Virus record (IMG/VR): IMGVR_UViG_3300044904_000025
Coordinates: 1-25,676 of that record
Strand: one strand, 5' to 3'
DNA length: 25,676 nt
Origin: a virus
Positions 7,776-16,900 of this stretch are shown one piece after another. A program made the translations under genes and the position numbers. How positions within the stretch are numbered: position 1 is the first letter of the stretch; every line of letters starts with the position of its first letter. The notes under the pieces were generated by a model. The model was not told where the DNA came from. It was given only the letters and a program-made list of their open reading frames with translations, and searched no databases.

Positions 7776-8552
7776 ATGGCGGTAGGAAAGAAGCAAGAGA
7801 AGTCCGAAATCAGCGTTGTCGAGATCGCGCAGGGGAGCATCAAGTTTTGTCTCCTCGGGCGCACGCCGTTCTTTTGTAACCGGATGAGTGAGAAGGCGCG
7901 TTTCGAATTGCTCTTCCCGAAGGGGAAGAAGAACGCCGCCGAGAAGGCGTCCTCGCTCAAGCACGAACCGATCAAGGAGTTCAGGGACAGCGCCTACGTC
8001 ACCACGAACGACGATCAACCGACGCGCGTTCTCATGCTCGCGGCTGCGTTCAAGCGGGCGCTCGAAAGCTGCGCGCTCGATATGCCCGGCGACGCGAAAA
8101 AGGCGCAGATTGGTCGCCTCACGTGGGCCGAAGGCACCTACGTCAATATGTACGGCATCCCACAACTGTCAATGGCAGTGGTCCGCAACAAGGATATGAA
8201 CCGCACACCGGACATCCGCTCGCGCGCCGCGTTGCCGGAGTGGGCGTGCCGCGTCGAGATTTCGTTCGTCAAGCCGATTTTGCGGGAGCAGACGGTTGCA
8301 AACCTTCTCGCGGCCGCCGGCATGATGCGCGGGGTTGGCGACTGGCGCGTCGAGAAGGGCGCGGGAAACAACGGGCAGTTTACGCTCGTGGACGAAGACA
8401 ATGCGGACTTCAGGCGGATTATCAAGACCGGTGGGATCAAGGCGCAGGATGCAGCGTTCGCAGATCCGATGCCGTTCGACAAGGAAACCGAGGATCTCTT
8501 CGAGTGGTTCAAGGGAGAGACTGGTCGGCGCGGGTTCAAGGCGGTTGCATGA
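7776..8552 (+). CDS. Conserved phage protein of unknown function
   Basis: A 258-residue protein with a strong AAAGGGAGGA ribosome site ahead of ATG 7776. Its pattern is one I recognise from many phages and prophages: an opening strand followed by LLGRTPFFCNRMSEKAR, then an EFRDSAYV segment, a long helix LMLAAAFKRALESCAL, a central strand block with RAALPEWACRVEISFVKPIL, and near the end LLAAAGMMRGVGDWRVEKG leading into GQF. The alternating strands and the glycine-rich GVGDWR loop suggest a compact alpha/beta fold. I cannot name a function. It is coupled (ATGA) to the next gene, which also belongs to a conserved phage family, so the two probably work together. Confidence 0.7.
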   Translation: MAVGKKQEKSEISVVEIAQGSIKFCLLGRTPFFCNRMSEKARFELLFPKGKKNAAEKASSLKHEPIKEFRDSAYVTTNDDQPTRVLMLAAAFKRALESCALDMPGDAKKAQIGRLTWAEGTYVNMYGIPQLSMAVVRNKDMNRTPDIRSRAALPEWACRVEISFVKPILREQTVANLLAAAGMMRGVGDWRVEKGAGNNGQFTLVDEDNADFRRIIKTGGIKAQDAAFADPMPFDKETEDLFEWFKGETGRRGFKAVA

Positions 8553-9034
8553 TTACCAACGAGGTAGTGCGCGATGCGCTGGCGAAGTTGGAAGAGGACG
8601 GCGGGACGTTGACGCCGCAATCCGTGGTCGAGGCCGCAAAGAGTCCGCGCCATCCCCTGCACGCCTGTTTCGAGTGGGATGATTCGGTTGCGGCACACAC
8701 ATGGCGAATCGAGCAGGCGCGCGGTCTGATTCGGAGCGTCAAACTCGTGATAACTGTTGATCGCGTTGAGTTTTCCACCGTTCACTACGTTCGTGATCCC
8801 AGGGTACCGAGCGAGGATCAGGGTTACGTCGGGATTCCAAACGCACAAGGTGACGCTGACCTAGCGCAGCAGATCATCCGGCAAGAGTTCTCGCGCGCCG
8901 ACGCGGCGTTGCGTCGTGCCCAAGACGTTGCAAAGGCACTTGGCGTAGAGCGCGTCTTGGACAAGGCGAGAAAGCGTCTTGCGCGTTCGGTTGGCGAGTT
9001 CGAAAGAGAAGTCGGGCAACAGGCGAGAGCGTAG
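8549..9034 (+). CDS. Conserved phage protein (LTPQSVVEAAK family), unknown function
   Basis: A 161-residue protein whose N-terminal half follows a pattern common in phages: LEEDGGTLTPQSVVEAAKSP, then HPLHACFEWDDSVAAHTWRI and EQARGLIRSVKL. A strand segment with TVDRVEFSTVHYVRD follows, and the C-terminal third (about 105-155) is a charged coiled-coil helix. No catalytic motif is evident. ATG at 8549 overlaps the upstream TGA. It is the last gene before the non-coding repeat tract, and hence the probable end of the early/middle operon. Confidence 0.72.
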   Translation: MITNEVVRDALAKLEEDGGTLTPQSVVEAAKSPRHPLHACFEWDDSVAAHTWRIEQARGLIRSVKLVITVDRVEFSTVHYVRDPRVPSEDQGYVGIPNAQGDADLAQQIIRQEFSRADAALRRAQDVAKALGVERVLDKARKRLARSVGEFEREVGQQARA

Positions 9035-9047
9035 GGTGAAGTGACAA

Positions 9048-9382
9048 GGCATGACATGGCGAGGTCTGGACTGGCCGGGCAAGGCCGGGTCTGGCGTGGT
9101 GTGGCAAGGCAGGCGCGGCAGGGTGGGGTACGACACGACAGGGCGGGGCTGGGTCCGGTGCGGTTTGGTATGGCTAGGTTCGGTGCGGCAGGTGTGGCGC
9201 GGTAGGCATGGATGGGTCTGGCATGGCGCGGTTGGGCAGGGAGTGGCATGGCAGGCGAGGCGAGGCCTGGTCAGACACGGTCGGGCGCGGCTGGGCAAGG
9301 CCTGGTATGGCAAGGCAGGCAAGGAATGGAACGATTTGGTGGGGCGAGATTTGGCTCGGCCAGGCATGGAATGATCTGGCAC
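9048..9382 (+). repeat. 68-unit degenerate GGYNN pentamer tract
   Basis: Written as consecutive units, this stretch reads GGCAT GACAT GGCGA and so on without a break for 68 units. Position 1 is always G and position 2 almost always G (otherwise A). Position 3 is C or T in all but a few units; positions 4-5 are free. Sixty-three units are 5 nt long and five are 4 nt long (starting at 9108, 9187, 9201, 9250 and 9314), each GGCA or GGTA; no 6-nt unit occurs. G far exceeds C (30 against 14 in 9061-9120). The last unit ends one base before a promoter -35 box. Frames that stay open across it on either strand are by-products of the periodicity. Confidence 0.9.
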
Positions 9383-9411
9383 TTGACAAACAGAAATGTG
9401 TGCTGTACATT
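9383..9411 (+). promoter_or_regulatory. Sigma70-type promoter
   Basis: A perfect TTGACA at 9383-9388, a 17-bp spacer and TACATT at 9406-9411 (4 of 6 matches to TATAAT) with TG just before it. Transcription would begin near 9418. It is the only good promoter I see in the window and lies ahead of the HNH-terminase-head operon, so it is the best candidate for the late promoter. No UP element: the GGYNN tract directly abuts the -35 box. Confidence 0.75.
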
Positions 9412-9417
9412 GTGTTC

Positions 9418-9466
9418 AAGAGAGCGACAGCTCTCGAAAGACCTCGAGCAATCGAGGTCTTTTTAT
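9418..9466 (+). ncRNA. Predicted two-hairpin mini-transcript / attenuator leader
   Basis: From the predicted start near 9418 to the terminator U-run, the RNA would be only about 48 nt. A first hairpin, GAGAGC/GCTCTC around GACA (9420-9435), sits at the 5' end, and the terminator hairpin follows after two bases. A weaker alternative pairing (9432-9437 with 9452-9457) would disrupt both. Either this is a free small RNA, or it is a leader that must be read through, by antitermination, to express the late genes. No family is recognised. Confidence 0.5.
9438..9464 (+). terminator. Intrinsic terminator immediately after the promoter
   Basis: Ten-base-pair stem AAGACCTCGA/TCGAGGTCTT with a GCAA tetraloop (9448-9451), running directly into a run of five T (9460-9464) and then ATT. 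A textbook Rho-independent terminator, oriented for + strand transcripts and lying only about 25-45 nt downstream of the promoter start site. Confidence 0.85.
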
Positions 9467-9477
9467 TGGAGTAGACA

Positions 9478-9807
9478 ACGCCATTCGCGCCGCTAAAAGC
9501 ATGCAGCGCCCCATCTTGTAGGAATCGAGTGGTGCGCGGGCGCTGTCCTGAGCATGCACAACAACAGACACACGAGTATTTCTCTGTGTACAATCGCGAG
9601 AGTCGCGTTGAACACGACCCACGCAACACACAACGATGGAAGAAGATGCGCGTGCGCTTCTTGCGTGACCATGTTATCTGCCAGCACTGCCATGATGCGT
9701 TCTCTGTTGCTGTCCATCACATAGACGGACAGGGCACAGACCCGGAACGTTGCTTTGAAGAGGACAATCTCATGGCAGTATGTGATCGGTGCCACCATGC
9801 GTTGTAA
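9478..9807 (+). CDS. HNH endonuclease with apparent ACG start
   Basis: HNH nuclease of the kind encoded beside cos and small terminase; in HK97 the HNH protein gp74 acts with terminase in DNA maturation. From 9478 the frame gives 109 residues: C9, C14, C23 and H26 form an N-terminal zinc knuckle (KACSAPSC ... GRCPEH) usual in this family. The HNH core follows: C68-x2-C71, VHHIDG (79-84), N97, and C102-x2-C105-HH. The codon at 9478 is ACG, where an ATG would be expected 6 nt after GGAG (9468-9471). The first conventional start is GTG 9529, which would remove half the N-terminal knuckle. The protein ends right after the last HH, where relatives usually continue. Codon use is less GC-biased than in the terminase genes. 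Confidence 0.75.
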   Translation, partial: TPFAPLKACSAPSCRNRVVRGRCPEHAQQQTHEYFSVYNRESRVEHDPRNTQRWKKMRVRFLRDHVICQHCHDAFSVAVHHIDGQGTDPERCFEEDNLMAVCDRCHHAL

Positions 9808-9927: not shown

Positions 9928-10389
9928 ATGAGGCCAGGACCGAAACCGACGCCGACGACGCTAAAACTCGTCAGAAACAACCCCGGCAAGCGGAAACTCC
10001 CGGAGAATGAGCCCCGCCTTCCAAGACAACTCCCGACGTGCCCGGAGAGGTTCGACGAAACCCGCCGGCGCGCCTGGTCGGACCTCGCGCAAGAGCTCCT
10101 CGGCATGGGTGTACTCACGGCCGCGGATGGCATCGCCCTTGAGTTGGCGGCCAGCCTCCTCGCACGATACCGAGAGGCTGATGAACACCTGCAGGCCGAG
10201 AAGCAAATCCTCACCTCGAAAGAGGGAGGCCTCTATCAATCGCCGTGGGGTGGGCTCTCCTCCAACCTTGAGAAGAAGCTCTGGAACGCCCTGGCCGCCT
10301 TCGGTATGTCGCCGGCCGACCGCTCGCGCGTCCAAGTGTCTGCGCCCCCGGCTGAGTCCGCCTACGAACAGGCAAGGAAAAAGAAATAG
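9928..10389 (+). CDS. terS: Terminase small subunit, P27 family
   Basis: A 153-residue protein beginning MRPGPKPTPTTLKLVRNNPG then KRKLPENEPRLP, the hallmark N-terminus of P27-type small terminases. A helical body follows (RRRAWSDLAQELLGMGVLTA, then DGIALELAASLLARYREADE), the conserved region before LYQSPWGGL and a C-terminal AAFGMSPADRSRV motif. It recognises the packaging site and directs the large subunit to it. ATG 9928 has a GGGG-type ribosome site about 8 nt upstream. Its TAG overlaps the large-subunit GTG by one base, so the two are co-translated. Confidence 0.93.
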   Translation: MRPGPKPTPTTLKLVRNNPGKRKLPENEPRLPRQLPTCPERFDETRRRAWSDLAQELLGMGVLTAADGIALELAASLLARYREADEHLQAEKQILTSKEGGLYQSPWGGLSSNLEKKLWNALAAFGMSPADRSRVQVSAPPAESAYEQARKKK

Positions 10390-12167
10390 TGACCGCTCTC
10401 AAGGGTTTCTCGGCCTCGCATCCCGCGGGCCGGTGGGAGAGGCGCGTCTTGGCTGGCAAGGAAGTCGTCTCTCACTACGTCCATCTCGCCGTTGAGCGCC
10501 AGCAGTACGACCTGCAGCACGGCGCCGAGCGGGGCCTCAAGTTCGAAAAAGAGAAGGTGGATCGGGTTATCACCTTCTTCCAGGATAACCTGCATCACTG
10601 GAAAGGCGAGTGGGCCGGTCAGATTGTTCACCTTGAAGACTGGCAGCAATGGATGCTCGGCGTTCTCTTCGGCTGGATTGGTGCGGACGGATACCGCCGC
10701 TTCCGTCGGTTGTGGATGGAAGTCGCCCGGAAGAACGGCAAGTCGTTCATCGCCGCCGGCATCGGTCTCTACCTCATGGACTTTGACAATGAGCCGGGCG
10801 CGGAGATTTTCGCAATAGCGACCAAGCGAGAGCAGGTTACGCGGTACATTTGGCGAGACGCCTGCCAAATGGTTGCGGCGTCGCCGGATCTCGCTCGTCG
10901 GATTCACCGCTTCCGCGCTAGCAACACCCTCGTCTGCGAGGAAACCGAAAGCTCGTTCCAGGCGCTCGGTTCGGACGCCTCCACCCTTGACGCGCTGAAC
11001 GTCCACGGCGGCCTACTCGACGAGGTACACGAGCACCCGACCCTGGAGATTCACGAGAAGATTGAAACCGGTATGGGCGCCCGGCGCCAGCCGATGCTCT
11101 GCCGCTTCACCACGGCCGGCGATGAGTCCCCGGGTTCGCCTTACGAACAACTCCACGAGTACGCCGCGAATGTTGTCGAGGGATTCCGTGAGAAGTTTGT
11201 GGACGACCGGGAGTTTGTGTTCCTGGCCTGCCTCGACGCTGACGACGATCCGTTCAATGAGGCGTGCTGGGCGAAGGCCAATCCGAACCTCGGCGTGAGC
11301 GTCAAGCTCGCGTTCCTCCGCGAGCAGGCCGTCAAGGCGAAGAATGAGCCGGCGTTCCTCCCAACCTTCCTCCGCTACCACTGCAATCGTCGCGCCCACG
11401 TCGACGCCGCGCCGATCCCGCTTGACCTGTGGGATGCATGCGAAGACCCGTCGCTACGTGACGACGACCTCGCCGGTAGGGACTGCTATGGCGGCCTTGA
11501 CCTCGCCACTACGACCGATCTTGCGGCACTCGGGCGCGTCTACCCTGAGATCCGCGCGGACGGCAGCGAGGGCATCGTCGTCAAGTGCGACGCATGGTGC
11601 CCGGATGAGGGTATCGACAAGCGCGCTCGGACCGACGGTGCACCCTACGCGGAGTGGGCGTCCCAGCACTGGCTAACGGCCACGGCGGGGAACATCATCG
11701 ACTACCGCTTCATCGAGGACACCCTCGGCGGCCTGGCGGCGAAGGTCGTGTTCCGCGACATCGGGTTCGACAAGGCGAAGGCGGCCGACGTCTGCATCCG
11801 GCTCGCCGACGCCGGACTCCCCCTGACCGAGTGCCCACAAGGTCCGCTCCACATGACGGCGCCCTTCAACCGTCTGCTCGACCTCGTGCGTTCCGGGCGC
11901 CTGCGGCATGACGGCAACCCGTTACTCCGCTGGTGCATTGGCAATCTGCGCGTCAAGGACGCCGCCGGCGGCCTCGTGCGGATCGTCAAGGCCAATCAGC
12001 GGGCGCGGATCGACGGCGCGGTCGGCATCCTGATGGCGCTCGCGCGTCTCATGTTGGCGACGCCGGAGGCCGGGAACTCGTACTCGGACGACTACGACAA
12101 GCCGCTGATTGTCCGGCGCGATGGGGGCGGCAGCTACGGCAAGGATTACAGCGAGGTCACCCCATGA
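10389..12167 (+). CDS. terL: Terminase large subunit (HK97-type)
   Basis: A 592-residue packaging motor and nuclease. The N-terminal ATPase has the variant Walker A VARKNGKS (112-119), typical of this terminase family, and the Walker B GGLLDEVHEH, with D211-E212. The C-terminal RNase H-like nuclease opens with YGGLDLATTTDL, where D371 is the expected first metal ligand; FRDIGFDKAKA and a terminal VGILMAL...Y segment follow in the usual order. Length and motif order are normal for the family. GTG start overlaps the small-subunit stop by one base. Its own stop overlaps the start of a membrane glycosyltransferase (ATGA), where the portal gene would normally be found. Confidence 0.96.
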   Translation: MTALKGFSASHPAGRWERRVLAGKEVVSHYVHLAVERQQYDLQHGAERGLKFEKEKVDRVITFFQDNLHHWKGEWAGQIVHLEDWQQWMLGVLFGWIGADGYRRFRRLWMEVARKNGKSFIAAGIGLYLMDFDNEPGAEIFAIATKREQVTRYIWRDACQMVAASPDLARRIHRFRASNTLVCEETESSFQALGSDASTLDALNVHGGLLDEVHEHPTLEIHEKIETGMGARRQPMLCRFTTAGDESPGSPYEQLHEYAANVVEGFREKFVDDREFVFLACLDADDDPFNEACWAKANPNLGVSVKLAFLREQAVKAKNEPAFLPTFLRYHCNRRAHVDAAPIPLDLWDACEDPSLRDDDLAGRDCYGGLDLATTTDLAALGRVYPEIRADGSEGIVVKCDAWCPDEGIDKRARTDGAPYAEWASQHWLTATAGNIIDYRFIEDTLGGLAAKVVFRDIGFDKAKAADVCIRLADAGLPLTECPQGPLHMTAPFNRLLDLVRSGRLRHDGNPLLRWCIGNLRVKDAAGGLVRIVKANQRARIDGAVGILMALARLMLATPEAGNSYSDDYDKPLIVRRDGGGSYGKDYSEVTP

Positions 12168-15592: not shown

Positions 15593-16900
15593 ATGAGTAA
15601 CCCTGTGCTTGAGCTGTCCGACCAGCTCAAAGTCGCCAAGGCCGACGGTCAGGCGATCATCGACAAGGCGGGCGCTGAGAAGCGCTCATTCACCCCGGAA
15701 GAGCGGACCACGCTCGACAACGTGTCTGCCAAGGTCAAGGACCTCGCGGCCGACATGGAGCGGATGCTGAAATTCGACTCTACCGGCAACGGTAACACCC
15801 CGGCGACCATCGGCCTGACCGAACCCGAAGCCCGGAGCTTCTCGGTCGTCAAGGCCATCAAGGCCATCGCCGAGGGTTCGTGGCGCGGTGCCGAGTTCGA
15901 GCACGAGGCGACCGAGGCGGCTGCCAAGGCGCTCGGCCGTGGCCCCAAGGGCCTCGGCTTCATCATGCCGGACGAGGTCATGCACGTCCGCGCCGACACC
16001 AACCCCCACATTTCCCAGATTATCAAGGCGACCGCCACCTCTGGTGGCGACCTCGTGAGGACCGAGCTTCTGTCGGCCTCGTTCATCGGCCTGCTCCGCG
16101 ACAAGATGATCGTGAAGGCGGCCGGTGCTCGCATTCTTAGCGATCTGACTGGGGACGTGAACATTCCCAAGCAGGTTGCTGGTGCAACGGCATTTTGGGG
16201 CGGGGAGGACCCCACAATTACTGCGAGTGGGCAAACGTTCGGTTTGGTTTCTCTCACACCCCACGATTTGCACGCGCAGACGCAGATTAGCCGTCGCATG
16301 CTTTTGCAGAGTTCGGTGGACATCGAGAACCTCGTCCGTGACGACATCGCCACCGTCCTCGCTCTTGCGGTGGATCTTGCGTGCCTTCACGGCACGGGCG
16401 CCAACTCGCAGCCCTACGGCATCGCCTCGACCACGAGCGTCGGGTCGGTGACCGGCGGCACCAACGGCGCGCTCCCGACGTGGGCCAACTTCATCTCCCT
16501 GGAGTCCAAGGTCGCGGTGGCGAACGCCGAGATGGGCGCGCTTGCGTACATCACCAACGCAGCCGTGCGTGGCTATACCAAGGGTGCACCGAAGATCGGC
16601 ACCGCCTACCCGATGTATCTGTGGGGCGAGGGCGCGTTCCCGTTCAACGGCTACCCGGTGTTCATCACCAACCAGGTCAGCTCCACGCTGACGAAGGGGA
16701 CCGCGACCGCGATTGCGTCGGCTATCTTCTTCGGCAACTGGAACGACCTGCTCATCGGACAGTGGGGCACGGGACTGGACGTTATCGTGGACCCGTATAC
16801 CGCCCCGGGTGCCATTCGGATCACCTCATTCATCGATGTCGACGTGGCCGTCCGTCACCCCGAGTCGTTCGCGGTGATGCTCGACGCTCTCGTGGCATAA
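15593..16900 (+). CDS. Major capsid protein, HK97 fold
   Basis: A 435-residue precursor with an AAGGAG ribosome site about 8 nt before ATG. Residues 1 to about 100 are a charged helical delta domain (DQLKVAKADGQAIIDKAG, VSAKVKDLAADMERML) that would act as internal scaffold and be removed by the upstream protease. The HK97-fold shell domain follows, with family blocks such as AGARILSDLTGDVNIPK, SLTPHDLHAQTQISRRMLLQ, ENLVRDDIATVLALAVDLAC, and near the end a FGNWNDLLIGQWGTGLDVIV segment and DVAVRHPESFAVM. The stretch coding about residues 182-242 ends many codons in T or A, unlike both flanks, hinting at recombination inside the gene. Confidence 0.95.
   Translation: MSNPVLELSDQLKVAKADGQAIIDKAGAEKRSFTPEERTTLDNVSAKVKDLAADMERMLKFDSTGNGNTPATIGLTEPEARSFSVVKAIKAIAEGSWRGAEFEHEATEAAAKALGRGPKGLGFIMPDEVMHVRADTNPHISQIIKATATSGGDLVRTELLSASFIGLLRDKMIVKAAGARILSDLTGDVNIPKQVAGATAFWGGEDPTITASGQTFGLVSLTPHDLHAQTQISRRMLLQSSVDIENLVRDDIATVLALAVDLACLHGTGANSQPYGIASTTSVGSVTGGTNGALPTWANFISLESKVAVANAEMGALAYITNAAVRGYTKGAPKIGTAYPMYLWGEGAFPFNGYPVFITNQVSSTLTKGTATAIASAIFFGNWNDLLIGQWGTGLDVIVDPYTAPGAIRITSFIDVDVAVRHPESFAVMLDALVA

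Follow-up and report, generated by a model that had tools for sequence, protein, structure and literature searches.

A 68-unit GGYNN tract in a phage genome is very probably a VIPR guide-RNA array, with short units that may punctuate it

The window analysed here (the whole 25,676-nt stretch of IMG/VR virus record IMGVR_UViG_3300044904_000025, positions 1 to 25,676) contains a tract of short repeats with the consensus GGYNN. Two overlapping genes precede it, and it is followed by a promoter-like sequence, two hairpins, an HNH gene (9529-9807) and the genes for the small and large terminase subunits (9928-12167). The locus is composed of the following features.

7776..8552, + strand: vipr, 258 aa, a predicted RAMP-family guide-RNA-binding protein, phrog_4652; its start codon, ATG at 7776, is preceded by the ribosome-binding site GGAGG
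8549..9034, + strand: putative vap gene (for a vipr accessory protein), 161 aa, phrog_15946 (no annotated function); its start overlaps the vipr stop (ATGA)
9048..9382, + strand: vrRNA array of 68 GGYNN units, assigned from the parse, the shuffles and the linkage to vipr
9383..9411, + strand: promoter-like TTGACA-17-TACATT, from a consensus scan only; a good sigma-70-like match directly 3' of the array and ahead of the hairpins
9420..9468, + strand: two hairpins, then a T run; the RNA fold of 9373-9475 has -36.1 kcal/mol and z -3.7

An earlier note on this DNA had parsed the tract by hand into 68 GGYNN units, with five units of 4 nt (GGCA or GGTA only) and none of 6 nt. A dynamic-programming parse reproduced this exactly: 63 units are 5 nt long, four of the 4-nt units are GGCA and one is GGTA. 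Within the 5-nt units, position 1 is always G (63/63), position 2 is G in 56 and A in 7, position 3 is C in 36, T in 21 and A in 6, and positions 4 and 5 are free. When compared to 1000 dinucleotide shuffles, the tract had a parse score of 165.5 against 31 ± 7.5 (maximum 49), and 53 pairs of GG at a distance of 5 nt against 17.2 ± 3.6 (maximum 28). This was the comparison that the earlier note had proposed for the 5-nt periodicity, and the signal goes beyond composition. A fixed 8-unit pattern occurred five times in the window, every time within the tract, and was absent from 100 shuffles. Tandem Repeats Finder, run on the window, did not report 9048-9382, which fits the view, also that of the earlier note, that the units are not recent copies. 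An Rfam scan of the tract region returned zero families. An open reading frame of 107 aa (9051-9374) spans the tract, which could in principle be an ordinary low-complexity coding region. However, this frame has no similar protein in phage records, the period of 5 and the regular 4-nt units break any frame, and GGY is conserved rather than codons; we give the coding explanation practically no weight.

We observed that tracts of this kind are widespread and linked to vipr. A blind scan of IMG/VR with the DNA pattern (GGYNN)x9 alone returned at least 120 stretches, and nearly all of the 120 listed are tracts with the same column pattern as in the window. A profile search found one protein family in 91 of these 120 stretches, or 92 of 121 loci with the window included. 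In the listed loci, the gene of this family, vipr, nearly always adjoins the tract on the tract's strand, and in many of them two tracts lie on either side of one gene. A tract-blind protein search in named phages gave nine vipr loci (ODay, Ecliptus, Pipp, Trine, Medea1, LittleE, LESphi2, VpaE1 and prophiBWHA-1), and all nine have a GGYNN tract adjoining vipr. Relatives keep the period with positions 4 and 5 free among them, in agreement with the earlier suggestion that something maintains the spacing. The position of the tract in the window, shortly ahead of HNH and terminase genes, would suit a DNA packaging or replication element (a pac- or cos-like or phased protein-binding site). Yet similar tracts follow vipr and not terminase: they lie among tail genes in Gordonia phage ODay, with the DNA polymerase in Trine and near repressor and Cro genes at the LESphi2 locus. 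Across these varied contexts the constant neighbour is vipr rather than HNH or terminase, and we consider a packaging or replication element very improbable. The idea that the tract might always lie by an HNH gene also falls away, since named phages carry it next to vipr in regions for tail, replication or lysogeny functions.

The phrog_4652 family, which is the vipr family, is annotated as of unknown function and has no Pfam model. A leave-one-out family profile, with the window protein and its near relatives excluded, recovered 7776-8552 at E 3.4e-21, and a profile built from the nine named-phage vipr genes recovered it at 2.1e-15. Searched against the PDB, the family profile matched chain 36pp_D, 'SUSP1 Vipr protein', at E 3.7e-40; the window protein as a single-sequence query did not match SUSP1 Vipr. 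The AlphaFold2 model of the 7776-8552 protein had a pLDDT of 87.7. Its best 50 listed structural matches in the PDB were all chains of CRISPR effector complexes, for the most part RAMPs from types III and VII, and the complexes matched were type VII, Csm, Cmr and Cas7-11. The product of 7776-8552 has the hallmarks of a Vipr protein, namely RAMP homology, an RRM core and a G-loop. Because the family profile matches SUSP1 Vipr and the model folds like CRISPR RAMPs, the window can be assigned to VIPR.

VIPR (Viral Interference Programmable Repeat; bioRxiv 2026.04.26.720920, PMC13142463) is described in the main text of the preprint as a phage-borne system used between competing phages. According to that text, it consists of Vipr and of vrRNAs with 9-16 YNNGG repeats, whose NN pair with double-stranded DNA with one base skipped (NN, skip one, NN); for other VIPR members, it gives experimental support for RNA expression, the RNP, the skip rule and repression (PMC13142463). 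As in the VIPR systems presented there, the window has a RAMP-type Vipr on a phage, GGY/NN repeats adjoining vipr (by the parse and the linkage above) and a partner gene in the operon, and its guide 1 has a target in competing phages with the 1-nt skip on the wobble base. The system of the window thus belongs to a known, very recently described kind. It differs in layout: in the window, all 68 units form a single tract punctuated by 4-nt GGCA, whereas SUSP1 has separate vrRNAs of ~100 nt, each with a folded tail. The punctuated continuous array may be the design that the preprint terms 'staggered arrays with overlapping vrRNAs' (fig. S18; PMC13142463). The RAMPs of class 1 CRISPR (Cas7/Csm3 and type VII Cas7) resemble Vipr in fold and in a glycine-rich loop motif, and also in a filament with one subunit per repeat, which is presumed for Vipr. 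In contrast to class 1 CRISPR, the Vipr system has a single small protein, a 5-nt rather than a 6-nt step, a noncontiguous guide and no CRISPR repeats. Class 1 CRISPR-Cas is defined by multiple cas genes and by repeats with unique spacers; no Cas family was found among the scanned window genes, no CRISPR-type repeat array was reported in the window and no spacer-acquisition genes were seen there. By these scans, the window does not look like a class 1 CRISPR-Cas locus.

The array and its linkage to vipr, the family and fold of the Vipr protein, and the regular slips and capsid-gene target of guide 1 described below together lead us to conclude with high confidence that 9048-9382 encodes the guide RNAs of a phage VIPR system, probably as five GGCA-bounded guides that would be bound by Vipr and would repress genes of rival phages. 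By analogy with the published system, the array would be expressed as RNA in the same direction as the genes, and the system would be active in this phage. Vipr would polymerise on the RNA so that each 5-nt unit is covered by one subunit, which holds GGY and presents NN. These NN pairs would then read double-stranded DNA with one base skipped each, the skipped base being the codon wobble position, and most likely the complex would bind matching genes of rival phages, here the capsid gene, and block their transcription. The earlier note had considered a helically phased binding array for a multimeric protein; the multimeric protein stands, as a RAMP, but RNA (vrRNA), not a DNA site, is the most likely form in which the tract is read. 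Its other readings (G-quadruplexes, R-loops or an origin in templated or error-prone synthesis) are unneeded given a vrRNA array. Relatives of the capsid and terminase proteins pointed to no single host: they share only about 35-40% identity and come from phages of many hosts.

The candidate accessory protein encoded at 8549-9034 may help repression. It has homologues in 29 of the 92 vipr-bearing loci (window counted), and its AlphaFold2 model (pLDDT 96) gave zero significant fold matches in the PDB. The hairpins and T run at 9420-9468 are, from the predicted fold, likely the end of the array transcript, and Rfam returned zero families for this region. A check for structured vrRNA 3' tails placed hairpins only after the whole array; the internal modules are joined just by GGCA. 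The putative guide modules stand head to tail, each closed by GGCA.

9048..9111, + strand: guide module 1, 12 units and GGCA; target matches in other phages' major capsid genes
9112..9190, + strand: guide module 2, 15 units and GGCA; no convergent target found
9191..9253, + strand: guide module 3, 13 units with GGCA last and a GGTA slip inside at 9201-9204; no target found
9254..9317, + strand: guide module 4, 12 units and GGCA; no target found
9318..9382, + strand: guide module 5, 12 units, then the terminal GGCA at 9378-9381; no convincing target
9108..9111, + strand: punctuation slip GGCA, with copies at 9187-9190, 9250-9253, 9314-9317 and the terminal 9378-9381; called from regular spacing and biased NN in neighbouring units

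Division of the tract at GGCA only gives 13, 16, 13, 13 and 13 units, and GGCA also closes the array. The tract might instead be a VIPR array in which the slips are random deletions of no consequence and the true guide boundaries lie elsewhere. Consistent with this, the GGTA slip at 9201-9204 is off the 13-unit spacing, and regular slips are absent from some arrays of other types. However, the slips of the collected tracts are far from random. In tracts with at least four GGCA-type slips, the spacing had a mean of 10.2 units and a CV of 0.34 over 210 intervals, compared to a mean CV of 0.89 and a minimum of 0.74 in 2000 runs of random placement. In all tracts pooled, 4-nt units outnumber 6-nt units (376 vs 158), and GGCA is the dominant form (217/376). 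The one-way slips of the earlier note recur in many such arrays, and regular spacing sets them apart from mere drift. NN is biased in the units next to slips, on both sides, and is close to background in units farther off. Related phages differ at slips by a whole module: Gordonia phages ODay and Ecliptus have vipr genes that are 89% identical, and Ecliptus has one additional module of 44 nt, slip-bounded at both ends. Their arrays have in common the pattern of the first units, a middle guide that keeps 14/14 NN bases but differs at three scaffold positions, and a near-identical terminal module. The target match of guide 1, which covers units 2 to 11-12 of the 12 in its module, also argues against inconsequential slips, and we regard random deletion as unlikely. 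Judged from sequence, the slips act like guide boundaries. We lean towards the explanation that, in a widespread subset of VIPR systems, the GGCA -1 slip ends a guide, resets the register and marks the unit of guide processing, gain and loss, such that one RNA would carry many overlapping guides. The exact vrRNA ends would then be staggered, with each RNA probably taking its 3' end from the start of the next module; 12 of 58 arrays stop two units past their last GGCA, which suggests such a double use. The punctuated design is also present in bacterial genomes. The main text of the preprint (bioRxiv 2026.04.26.720920, PMC13142463) does not mention slips; as far as that text goes, the slip punctuation and the major-capsid target are new.

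The NN of guide 1 are AT AT GA CT CT CG AA CG CT GT GT AA, which as NNx codons read [IM][IM][DE]LLR[NK]RLVV[NK]. An exact scan of IMG/VR with its eight central units, under the 1-nt skip rule, gave 31 matches. The best eight match at 22/24, 21/24 and, for six of them, 20/24 NN bases, all in frame and with the motif [FVL]I[DE]LLRNRLV; even the best is imperfect. All eight scanned target proteins belong to phrog_617 (major head proteins), as does the capsid protein of the window itself; the matches are homologous to each other and thus not independent. The order-reversed control guide gave 47 IMG/VR matches; in these, at most 3 of 8 flanking bases agreed, compared to 4-6 in eight matches of the real guide. 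A DNA target of the NN code in competing elements, with the 1-nt skip mostly at wobble positions, was found for guide 1 only. The phage's own capsid gene carries a weaker counterpart.

16082..16117, + strand: own-genome homologue of the guide 1 target, inside the major capsid gene (15593-16900); 17/24 NN bases match

At 17/24, this site would spare the phage from its own guide. IMG/VR scans with guides 2-5 gave no convergent target (guide 4 was tried at 9 and 8 units). Some matches of guide 2 lay in an antisense motif of helicase-like type, KAG[HQ]PLVV, and do not extend; guide 3, with its odd GGTA slip, may be damaged. All guides searched against all other collected loci with skips of 0-4 gave no clear excess over controls, and a Mycobacterium szulgai guide had zero targets in 297 genomes. 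On two separate contigs (L038 7462-8158 and L068 5138-5707), modules share 15/16 NN bases with 7/24 scaffold changes. This could reflect a common target or chance; as a rough estimate, ~0.3 such pairs are expected by chance, and the pair was therefore excluded from the evidence.

These results independently confirm, from raw sequence and in a different phage, the anatomy of VIPR and, for one guide, its noncontiguous code. The slip rule is a testable way to divide continuous arrays into guides, and it lets many metagenomic arrays be split and decoded to targets. Module gain and loss can be traced between related phages, which bears on guide acquisition; arrays of two related Gordonia phages (L286 3635-3796 and L287 3610-3845) form a natural pair for such a study.

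Further features were noticed at several collected loci. Two tracts flank a gene whose N-terminus looks ParB-like by eye at L085 2579-3454 and L104 3731-4414; this may be another accessory gene. At L058 3029-3331 and L097 1703-2011, tracts are separated by small genes that resemble nucleases (DUF559/Vsr-like, again by eye), consistent with nuclease-bearing VIPR types. At L002 637-1197, a conserved block of ~50 nt (CTTATTGC.AGGAATAGGGC...CGTGCAAT) stands between guide runs; it matched no Rfam family at the gathering threshold. The array at L107 4600-5047 has an invariant GGT scaffold and another joint, GGCT then AATG, as a variant punctuation. Within the array at L109 1956-3546, which has 325 units and 34 slips, a repeated block, GCACGGGAGCAGCAGCATCCGGCGTAAAGGGATGGAC, intervenes at several places, with single-base variation among some of its copies; duplication of whole sub-arrays would give such a picture.
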